Origin: Ferriphaselus amnicola
GTDB lineage: Bacteria; Pseudomonadota; Gammaproteobacteria; Burkholderiales; Gallionellaceae
Direction of reading: 5' to 3'
Length of the DNA stretch: 64,000 nucleotides
Assembly: GCF_000974685.2 (NCBI RefSeq)
Contig: NZ_AP018738.1
Span: forward strand, 1,736,001-1,800,000
Shown here: positions 36,912-39,900 of the stretch, in pieces
Layout of the letters: each line of letters begins with the position of its first letter
Position numbering within the stretch: the first letter of the stretch is position 1
Notes under the pieces: generated by a model
What the model saw: only the letters and a program-made list of their open reading frames with translations
What the model was told of the DNA's origin: nothing
Database searches by the model: none
Program-made: the position numbers and the translations under genes

Positions 36912-39900
36912 TCAATAGGTGATGCGAATATTCTGCCGCCCGAGTTCGCCGTTCAAACTATTCAGCAAATCATCATGCAAAGTCACCTTCCAATCCTCGC
37001 CCAATTTCAGCTGGACACTGGCTTGCGAGTTTCGATAATGTAACAGCACGGGGCAGCAGCCATCGCGGTACGGCATCAGCAGTTGTTGCAGCCGAGCTGA
37101 ACTCACGCCTGCCGCGTCGGTTACGGCGACATCGAGACATTTGGCGAACACCGAACGTGCTGAGGCGAAGTTGAACAGCTCTTCACCGCTCACCCGCATT
37201 CCGCCGGAGTATTCATCGAAGCCCGCTTTGCCGCGTACCACCAGCAACTCGTCCTCGCGTATCCACTGCTTACTGCCTTCATAAACATCATTGAACACCG
37301 TCAGTTCGAGCTGGGCACTGCCATCATCCAAAGTCACCGCAGCCATGCGCCCACGCCGGGTTTGCAAAATCCGGATGCTGGACACGATACCCGCCAGTAC
37401 CACTTGCACCCCAGGATTGCGCCGCCCACCGCCGCCACCGCCTTCGCCGTAGTTATTGTGACTGCGCCCCGCACCGGCCATCTGCGGGGTGACATCGGCT
37501 AGCTTGAATTTGACAAATTTAGCCAGCTCTTCGGCGTATTCCTGATAGGGATGACCGCTGAGATAGAAGCCCAGCGCAGTCTTTTCCTGCTGCAACTTTT
37601 CTCGCAGACTCCACGGCTCGACGTTCGCCATCGTCACCGGCAAGTCCGCGCCGTCGTCATCACCGAACAAGCTGTTCTGGTTGGCATGGCGGGCATGCTG
37701 GTCGGCGGCTTCCAGTGCCGCATCCAGCGAAGCCATCATCTGATGGCGGTGGTCGTTCATCGCATCGAACGCGCCGCCTCGGATCAGCGCTTCGATAGTG
37801 CGACGATTGACGATGCGTTTATCCACACGGCGGCAGAAGTCGAACAAATCAGTGAATGGGCCGTTCTTGCGCACGGCGGAGATGCTCTCGATAGCCGCCT
37901 GCCCCGTGCCCTTGATCGCGCCCAGGCCGTAGGCGATGGTCTTTTCATCGACCGGCGCGAAGCGATAGTTCGATGAGTTCACGTCCGGCGGCAGAATGGT
38001 CAAGCCTTGTTGCAGCGAGTCCTGATAGAAGAAACTCACCTTGTCGGTGTTGTCCATTTCCGAGGTCATGGTCGAAGCCATGAACGCAGCGGGGTGGTGA
38101 CACTTCAGGTAGGCGGTCTGGTAGGCGACCAGCGAATAGGCGGCGGCGTGCGACTTGTTGAAGCCGTAGCCCGCGAACTTCTCCATCACGTCGAAGATCT
38201 CGTTGGCTTGGCCTGCCTCGATATTGTTCTTGGCAGCACCTTCGACGAACTTGGCGCGCTCCTTCGCCATCTCCTCGACTTTCTTCTTACCCATCGCACG
38301 GCGCAGCATATCCGCGCCGCCAAGACTGTAGCCCGCCGCCACCTGCGCCGCCTGCATCACCTGCTCCTGATACACCATGATGCCGTAGGTAGTGGACAAC
38401 ACCTTTTCCAAACAAGGGTGCGGATAAATCACCTTCTCGCGGCCATGCTTACGGTTGATGAAGTCCGGGATGAAGTCCATCGGGCCGGGGCGGTACAGCG
38501 CATTCAGTGCAATCAGGTCTTCCAGACAGTCCGGCTTCGCCTTCACCAGCGTGTCCTTCATGCCCCGTGATTCGAACTGGAACACCGCCGTGGTATTCGC
38601 GGTCTTGAATATCTTGTCGTAGGTCGGTTTATCGTCGAGCGGAATCGTCTCGATAGAAAAGTGCTGAGTGCCAAGTGCTGAGTGCTGAGCATCTGCACCG
38701 CCCTCGGTTTTACTCAGTCCTGTGACCTCACTACTCAGTCCTTTAATGTAACGCACCGCCCAGTCGATGATAGTCAGCGTACGCAGGCCCAAGAAGTCGA
38801 ACTTCACTAGGCCGATGGCCTCCACGTCGTCTTTATCGAGCTGGCTGACCGGATTGCTGCCATCCGCCGTGTAGATCGGGCAAAAATCGGTGAGCTGACC
38901 GGGCGCGATCAACACGCCACCGGCGTGCATCCCGATGTTCCGCGTCAAATCTTCCAGCCGTTCAGCCAGTTCCAACAGTTCGGGCACGCCTTCTTCATCG
39001 TTGGCCAAGGCATTGATCTCAGGCTCAAGCTCACGTGCTTTAGCGAGTGAGACGGGTTTCACGCCCTCCACCGGGATGAGCTTGGACAGGCGGTCGCACA
39101 GGCCGTAGGGAAAATCCATCACGCGCCCGACATCGCGGATCACGCCCTTAGACGCCATGGTGCCGAAGGTGGCGATCTGCGACACGCACTGCGCGCCGTA
39201 GTTGTCGCGGACGTATTTGATAACCAGCTCGCGCCCGTCCTGACAAAAGTCCACGTCGAAGTCGGGCATGGAGACCCGCTCGGGATTCAGGAAACGCTCG
39301 AACAGCAAGTCGTAACGTAAGGGATCGAGGTCCGTGATGCCGAGCGAGTACGCCACCAACGAGCCCGCACCGGAACCCCGCCCCGGCCCCACTGGCACGC
39401 CATTGGGAAAGCGTTCATGGCGATAGGCTTTGGCCCAGCGAATAAAGTCCGCCACGATCAAGAAGTAGCCAGGGAATCCCATCGTGATGATGGTGTTCAC
39501 CTCGAACTTCAGACGCTCCATGTACTCGGGCAATTTCGCTGCGCGCTGGGCCTCATCCGGGTAGAGCTGCGCCATGCGCTGCATCAAACCACGCTCGGAT
39601 TCGTCGTACAGGAACTGATCCAGACTTTCGCCATTCGGCGTAGGGAACGCGGGCAGTTGCGGCTTGCCCAGTTTCAACGTGAGGTTGCAGCGTTTGGCGA
39701 TCTCGACACTGTTCTCCAAGGCCTCCGGCAGATCGCGGAACAGCTCGGCCATCTGAGCCTGCGTTTTGAAATACTGCTGCTCGGTGAATGCCTTGGCGCG
39801 GCGCTTGTCGTTCAGCACGTAGCCCTCGGCGATGCACACACGTGCCTCGTGCGCCTTGAATTCATCCTGCTCCATGAACTGCACTGGATGCGTCGCCACC

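Follow-up and report, generated by a model that had tools for sequence, protein, structure and literature searches.

The stretch of DNA analysed here, 64,000 nucleotides long and referred to below as the window, covers positions 1736001–1800000 of the genome of Ferriphaselus amnicola (Gallionellaceae), which is related to the iron-oxidising Gallionella; the genome is a single contig of 2,717,229 bases (labelled G000 among the genomes compared). Its minus strand carries dnaE, the gene for the alpha subunit of DNA polymerase III, and within the dnaE reading frame lies a block of seven-base repeat units (heptads) that form two mutually inverted arms (Table 1). An earlier reading of the sequence, the original prediction, had described about 88 bases of inverted heptad sets in dnaE and suggested that they could be a mobile or expanding repeat tolerated within a loop.

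Table 1. Features of the dnaE locus, in positions of the window
Feature	Position	Strand	Basis
dnaE, DNA polymerase III alpha subunit, 1210 amino acids	36912..40544	-	open reading frame; Pfam; match to E. coli 2hnh
Inserted loop, 29 codons (IKGLSSEVTGLSKTEGGADAQHSALGTQH) versus 9 (VRQTLGVPD) in the closest relative, G001	38661..38747	-	alignment with G001
Heptad arm (AGTGCTG)n, G-rich when read opposite to dnaE; in the sense strand, the second, C-rich arm	38659..38690	+	Tandem Repeats Finder; lag-7 matches
AAAACC motif of the dnaE sense strand, inside the hairpin (plus strand: GGTTTT, at the end of the spacer)	38706..38711	-	sequence
C-rich arm of ACTCAGT heptads, which are GGACTGA-type in the dnaE sense strand	38711..38743	+	direct repeat TACTCAGTCCT at 38711 and 38732

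An in-frame heptad hairpin in dnaE

Read on the plus strand, the first arm of the block consists of AGTGCTG and AGTGCCA heptads and the second of ACTCAGT-type heptads. Between 38658 and 38745, bases seven positions apart (lag 7) match in 37 of 81 comparisons, a count equalled by 2 of 5000 dinucleotide shuffles, and the description of inverted heptad sets therefore holds; such tandem seven-base units are a mark of dispersed heptanucleotide repeats. Over the whole window, nine 88-nt stretches contain at least 37 lag-7 matches, and these overlap and all start at 38652–38660. The left arm alone (38658–38690) gives 19 of 26 matches, with 0 of 5000 shuffles as high. Tandem Repeats Finder reported a period of 14 at 38659–38685 (100%) and a period of 7 at 38660–38689 (82%). 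The inverted arms pair over 17 nt at 76% and over 12 nt at 83%, forming an imperfect palindrome that is carried in frame. Folding of the sense RNA was better than in shuffled sequences (z -2.87, 1 of 200 shuffles as good), as was folding of the DNA strand (z -2.04, 7 of 200 as good).

Within the DnaE frame, Tyr599 and Phe629 bracket the block. The best named matches to this protein come from Sideroxydans, Gallionella and other Gallionellaceae, and the closest relative by DnaE, G001, is 88% identical and lacks the block. The original prediction had put the addition at about 30 residues, but the net gain over G001 is 20. Pfam assigns PHP, DNA_pol3_alpha (residues 317–586), DNA_pol3_finger (626–774), HHH_6, OB and C-terminal domains, with the insert between the alpha and finger domains, and the alignment of a 300-residue DnaE segment to the E. 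coli alpha chain (2hnh; E 5.7e-91) opens 17 gap positions at the insert. In an AlphaFold2 model of residues 271–940, built with 44 homologues (mean predicted local distance difference test score, pLDDT, 84.9; predicted template modelling score 0.82), residues 608–624 have pLDDT below 50 and follow a helix that ends near residue 607; a second stretch with pLDDT below 50 spans residues 553–566. The insert is thus predicted to be a disordered linker between the NTPase (palm-side) and finger domains, which would be exposed at the surface. This model fits the suggestion of a repeat tolerated within a loop.

Heptad inserts at the dnaE loop across Gallionellaceae

The dnaE loop is a repeat hotspot in this family: nearly a third of the members read carry a heptad hairpin there. 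We found no published description of such a hotspot, or of a heptad dialect peculiar to a genome, in the literature searched, a search that most subscription papers fall outside. The 300-residue DnaE segment was matched in 117 of 120 family genomes; leaving out seven partial matches gave 110 loops, seven of which failed the anchor pattern, so that 103 were read. With long loops defined as those with at least 45 residues between anchors, 68 are short and 35 long. In the 35 long loops, the pooled identity between bases was 0.473 at lag 7, 0.392 at lag 14, 0.339 at lag 21 and 0.293 at lag 28, with 0.232–0.311 at all remaining lags between 3 and 30; the short loops show no lag-7 peak. Lag 7 was the best of lags 4–12 in 29 of the 35, the exceptions being G002, G007, G018, G057, G128 and G129. 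G002, in which lag 6 was best (lag 7 reached 0.41), was kept by eye as a GGGGAAG insert, giving 30 heptad inserts. The long loops of G129 and G018 contain no heptads, and CCCTCAC was rejected as a heptad unit in G057, G128 and G007, where lag 7 was not best and where, by eye, G057 and G128 read C-rich first.

Seven unit types were recognized: GAGTGCT, GGACTGA, GGATYGA, GGATWCR, GGATTTN, GGGGAAG and GTGAAAN. By eye, the C-rich arm ends directly before the Phe codon of an F[SN]I motif in most heptad inserts, and no target-site duplication is visible in the listed dnaE loops. The long loops exceed a 38-residue floor by 10 to 48 residues (34 loops). An essential polymerase therefore tolerates about 10 to 48 additional, variable residues at one linker. 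Seven dnaE loops of genus g9 that lack heptads are a few residues longer than those of their kin by way of a repeated IEN motif (IENRFSIEN), another sign of length tolerance at this loop. The dnaE match of G022 contains one in-frame TAG, which may be a sequencing error or real.

How often has the loop changed? On a tree of the flanking protein, with the loop left out (102 rows, the short row G124 being omitted; 29 heptad rows), the heptad inserts require at least 19 changes, nine of them forced by starred branches. The minimum is 22 when the CCCTCAC loops are included and 18 without the five non-heptad long loops. G067, with an insert, and G095, without one, have identical kept flank columns and flanking DNA that is 95% identical, and the unit differs between the sister rows G130 and G084 and between G022 and G015. 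Without regard to the direction of any one change, inserts are thus gained and lost and their units replaced. The wide variation in presence would suit the mobile repeat that the original prediction had suggested as a possibility.

Dispersed copies and their units

A whole-genome search of F. amnicola with three AGTGCTG units and up to three mismatches returned 29 overlapping matches at 12 places, dnaE included, on both strands; the reversed control returned 0. Three GAGTNNT units with one mismatch added two further places, 998940 and 2614331 (genome positions, as below); by our own estimate about one chance match is expected in this search, and 2614331 may be that one. There are thus about 13 heptad places besides dnaE, a dispersal typical of heptanucleotide repeats and of the kind that the original prediction had proposed to look for. 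Both conditions named there as refuting it, conservation of the residues in relatives and a lack of further period-seven copies, were thus checked, and neither holds. At least 7 of the 14 places are interior to open stretches of at least 120 codons. The genes concerned, named (dnaE apart) from our reading of their translations, are dnaE, an FAD-type oxidase (296654), a nucleotidyltransferase (1041808), a purL-like gene (1899981), and a UDP-glucose dehydrogenase-like gene (110015, 110553) and its paralogue (1465098). The place at 2614331 is also inside an open stretch, and 1716350, 1871861 and 2062052 are near the ends of open stretches. In-frame copies frequently translate to SALSTQHS, a common reading because the C-rich strand, (ACTCAGC)n, is free of stop codons in all frames. 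The two UDP-glucose dehydrogenase-like paralogues have an in-frame array at an equal position, and one has a second array.

Other units are also present in this genome. At about 1466478 there is a 95-nt array of TCAAGGT/CAAGGGG heptads, and at about 937160 a GGGAAGG-type array is followed by TAAAACC, so that a second dialect accompanies GAGTNNT, the main unit of this genome.

Several places are shared with relatives (gene names are again our own reading). The nucleotidyltransferase array is common to G000, G003 and G046, and a hairpin adjoining iscS to G000, G052 and G072. An array adjoining folP is 42 nt long in G000 and 56 nt in G001, with a near-equal spacer, as would suit an expanding repeat; this array was not seen in G084. 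A change of copy number is seen at 1716350. At 998940, where the flanks align, G000 has a GAGTNNT hairpin and G059 a GGGATAC hairpin, making this a second site with a switched unit. The shared sites and the switch at 998940 indicate that sites can persist through a change of unit.

Three unit patterns were counted in 33 long-loop genomes (30 heptad, three set aside) after removal of the dnaE matches; reversed-pattern controls gave zero for two patterns and 2 matches, in G067, for the third. GGATTTN occurred outside dnaE 10, 2 and 2 times in the three genomes with this unit in dnaE, and otherwise only in G084 (2), G090 (14) and G124 (4). The six GGATYGA genomes had 104, 4, 14, 8, 37 and 27 matches outside dnaE, and nine others had 1–14; the seven GGATWCR genomes had 0–143. 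Counts outside dnaE were higher in genomes with the matching dnaE unit (one-sided Mann-Whitney; GGATTTN, p = 1.7e-4; GGATYGA, p = 7e-5; GGATWCR, p = 4.8e-3), and 11 of 16 genomes used their dnaE unit more often elsewhere than either of the other two (permutation p = 2e-4). For a fourth pattern, GAGTNNT, counted in 60 genomes, there were 12 matches in G000 and 35 in G069, both of which have GAGTNNT in dnaE. The reversed control is uninformative for GAGTNNT and GGGGAAG because arrays of these units read backwards are nearly the same array. In G022, an exact GGGATNC triple is found in dnaE alone; the reversed control for GGGATNC gave 2 in G067. Agreement of units within a genome is thus real for three units, yet partial.

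Samples of 400 kb point in a similar direction: scored for lag-7 arrays at a threshold of 13, they gave 5 in G000, 7 in G101, 4 in G084 and 0 in both G065 and G073, the last a genus g9 genome whose dnaE lacks an insert. At a threshold of 10, G065 yielded two arrays of its own GGATTTN type; at the lower threshold lag 9 was also frequent (G101, 10; G084, 7; G065, 8), as expected in coding DNA.

The hairpins have a preferred orientation. The 87 arrays of the host loci form 26 distinct hairpins, and in 25 of these the G-rich arm leads, in none does the C-rich arm lead, and one is a tie; in samples drawn regardless of unit, all eight hairpins were G-rich first (four of the 80 stretches hold places already known). 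This orientation is independent of strand: a G-first hairpin stays G-first when reverse-complemented. The first half is G-rich in 33 of the 35 long dnaE loops and C-rich in G128 and G101, the latter having extra sequence before the array. Counter to the bias are the inserts of G057 and G128, which are not heptads by the lag test and read C-rich first, and a phage record in which 11 of 14 hairpins are G-first and three C-first. This record, the uncultured bacteriophage IMGVR_UViG_3300005578_000008, contains 35 lag-7 arrays (GAGTGCT/GAGTCCT/GGACTGA) in 38.1 kb and none at lags 4–6 or 8–12 at an equal threshold; one array is in frame in the head maturation protease.

In 33 dnaE loops, the two arms are more complementary within a genome (10.64 of 12) than between genomes (9.10 of 12; p = 2e-4). 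On the inner (3′) side of the G-rich array, AAAACC is present at a distance of up to 20 nt in 8 of 86 arrays; on the outer side it is present in 1 of 86, against a background of 0.4%. AAAACC was rejected as a universal inner motif: it is enriched but missing from most copies. In 34 long loops, frame 0 contains no stop codon, as an open frame must, and frames 1 and 2 would give 68 and 96. Within the six GGATYGA genomes, GATCGA is used 11 times in the sense strand and 3 times in the antisense strand, and GATTGA, which contains TGA, 4 and 10 times (Fisher p = 0.02, from counts within one gene that are not independent). This pattern of stop avoidance fits selection for an open frame.

Possible drivers were sought through enzyme counts in the 60 genomes, compared with counts of the GAGTNNT unit. 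Matches to Y1_Tnp, the domain of RAYT-like transposases, do not follow the heptads (rho -0.04, p = 0.77); G000 has three, and G067, G072 and G075 have heptads without Y1_Tnp. Reverse transcriptase matches (RVT_1) do not follow them either (rho -0.16, p = 0.22): 10 of the 16 genomes with GAGTNNT have no RVT_1, which is absent from the complete genome of G000 and from G063, the genome with most matches in the three-unit counts.

Origin of the block and its relation to known repeats

How did a heptad hairpin come to lie within the frame of a polymerase gene? In our best reading, the block is a variant of the known dispersed heptanucleotide repeats of Xanthomonas and Nostoc that enters coding frames, with several units shared within a genome. 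The dnaE block itself is probably a passenger, one copy of a hairpin element that is made of heptanucleotides and dispersed over the genome; selection would keep it in frame, and we propose no role for it in DnaE function. In such an element, a short spacer would separate a G-rich array of heptads from its complement. Copies may arise or spread at tolerated sites, and their arrays could lengthen and shorten by slippage. The arms may be kept alike by hairpin-templated correction, and copying from one array to another may homogenize the units between the loci of a genome. Which variants survive in frame would then depend on selection against stop codons.

Several observations weigh against this view. 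Some concern the sequences themselves: the right arm of the F. amnicola block is weak alone (111 of 5000 shuffles reach its lag-7 count), the unit types are by-eye assignments, and the genomes of most relatives are drafts. Units also agree imperfectly. GGATWCR occurs in 13 of 26 genomes of other dnaE classes (1–38 matches), five of the 16 genomes compared disagree (G022, G083, G086, G090 and G096), and the unit-match statistics ignore the relatedness of the genomes. Among genomes without a dnaE insert, G052, G046 and G001 are rich in GAGTNNT (26, 12 and 7 matches). Only one of the five genomes with GGGGAAG in dnaE that were searched for this unit (G014, and not G002, G012, G015 or G023) has an exact triple outside dnaE, and 1–2 matches occur in three genomes without this unit in dnaE (G006, G063 and G067). 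On the flank-protein tree, stars mark only 17 of the 97 inner branches, so the change count holds for the tree used. Finally, the analysis revealed neither an intermediate of transposition nor a target duplication nor an enzyme, and movement is therefore inferred from patchiness, to which the word mobile in the original prediction must be limited. Loss or exchange of dnaE alleles could yield equal patchiness.

One form of this alternative is homologous exchange of dnaE segments between species, in which alleles with and without the insert would be shuffled and nothing newly inserted. We consider it unlikely. G000 and G069 do have one unit in common and almost the same spacer, even though the tree pairs G000 with G001 as sister rows, and over the first 60 nt either side of the loop G000 is slightly closer to G069 (identity 0.87 and 0.83) than to G001 (0.85 and 0.77). 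However, units tend to match each genome's own dialect. A longer tract of raised identity was not seen on the right side, a comparison of limited weight since the left side is misaligned across an indel beyond 60 nt.

It is also conceivable, if improbable, that the units are written in trans. A cell-wide process with a lineage-specific seven-base dialect would add G-rich units to the two 3′ ends that flank a break or hairpin, which would yield a G-first hairpin, and a change of dialect would rewrite the arrays at fixed sites, dnaE among them. If true, a bacterial chromosome would acquire internal repeats in a telomere-like manner and would do so without a recognizable RVT_1 reverse transcriptase.

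Slippage within dnaE, unlinked to any other locus, would make the block a purely local microsatellite. In prokaryote intergenic DNA, heptamers are reported to outnumber all other tandem repeats and to have no clear function (PMC6344855); moreover, array length varies at an orthologous site and the GGGGAAG class is nearly without exact copies elsewhere. Since that class is unsupportive, it slightly lowers the probability of both the dispersed element and writing in trans and slightly raises that of local slippage. Yet the dnaE unit is scattered over the F. amnicola genome, the dnaE unit of three classes tends to follow that of the genome, the arms are inverted, and the same loop has been struck in many relatives. 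We therefore regard a purely local origin as hardly probable.

Two further explanations seem very improbable. Recurrent expansion at one position of an essential enzyme might point to a selected, functional linker extension, but its sequence, length and unit are unconserved, 68 of 103 loops are short and the segment is predicted with low confidence. Dispersed hairpins, some of them with a common inner AAAACC, would also suit a non-autonomous transposable element that depends on a Y1 (RAYT-like) transposase for movement or on a reverse transcriptase for synthesis, but neither Y1_Tnp nor RVT_1 counts follow the GAGTNNT counts.

The dnaE loop offers one conserved coding site that has been struck, changed and emptied repeatedly within one family; its flanks are easily aligned, so that the spread and switching of units are directly testable. 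A poorly understood class of repeat can thus be observed while it changes at one fixed site.

The original prediction had invoked two known kinds of repeat. Rickettsia palindromic elements are palindromic and lie in frame within protein genes, each family having a conserved consensus; they are not known to be heptad arrays. The dnaE block is likewise an in-frame palindromic insert but, with seven unit types at one site, has no single conserved consensus, which leaves these elements as an analogy only. Heterocystous cyanobacteria have STRR sequences, heptanucleotides in tandem at scattered genomic sites; these are an apt comparison in kind, although the host group differs from Gallionellaceae. 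The association with RAYT enzymes of the Y1 family that characterizes REP and REPIN sequences was not found over the 60 genomes for the GAGTNNT unit.

Closest in kind are the GGGAATC heptamers of Xanthomonas and the GGGGAYT heptamers of Nostoc, which, like the units here, have fixed and variable positions and are dispersed over the genome (Rehm et al., 2015; PMC4692102). Among the papers found on heptanucleotides together with dnaE, it was the only one that looked relevant by title, and one of its figure legends lists dnaE as a repeat-associated gene. The inverted pairs of Xanthomonas are convergent in 70 and 75 cases (PMC4692102), as are 25 of the 26 hairpins here, in which the G-rich arm comes first. 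The Xanthomonas repeats contain G-tracts and are 89–93% intergenic (PMC4692102), whereas GAGTNNT lacks the run of at least three G that marks the GGGAATC-type G-quadruplex repeats, and at least half of the 14 F. amnicola places are inside open frames. The TAACTGA repeats of Beggiatoaceae are also dispersed heptads, some of them in coding regions; the main genome has 169 direct sets, mostly just upstream of start codons, and one indirect set (PMC4679880). In Nostoc, the P6b stem of the trnL intron is built from class II (NNTGAGT) or class I (TDNGATT) heptads, with both arms of one class and repeated class switches at one site (PMC4476775). The Nostoc repeats form an RNA stem of a tRNA-Leu group I intron, whereas those described here occupy protein-coding dnaE and dispersed sites. 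Nevertheless, the change of unit at persisting sites recalls the class I/II switches, and class II fits the unit here, with GCTGAGT, ACTGAGT and TCTGAGT all matched.
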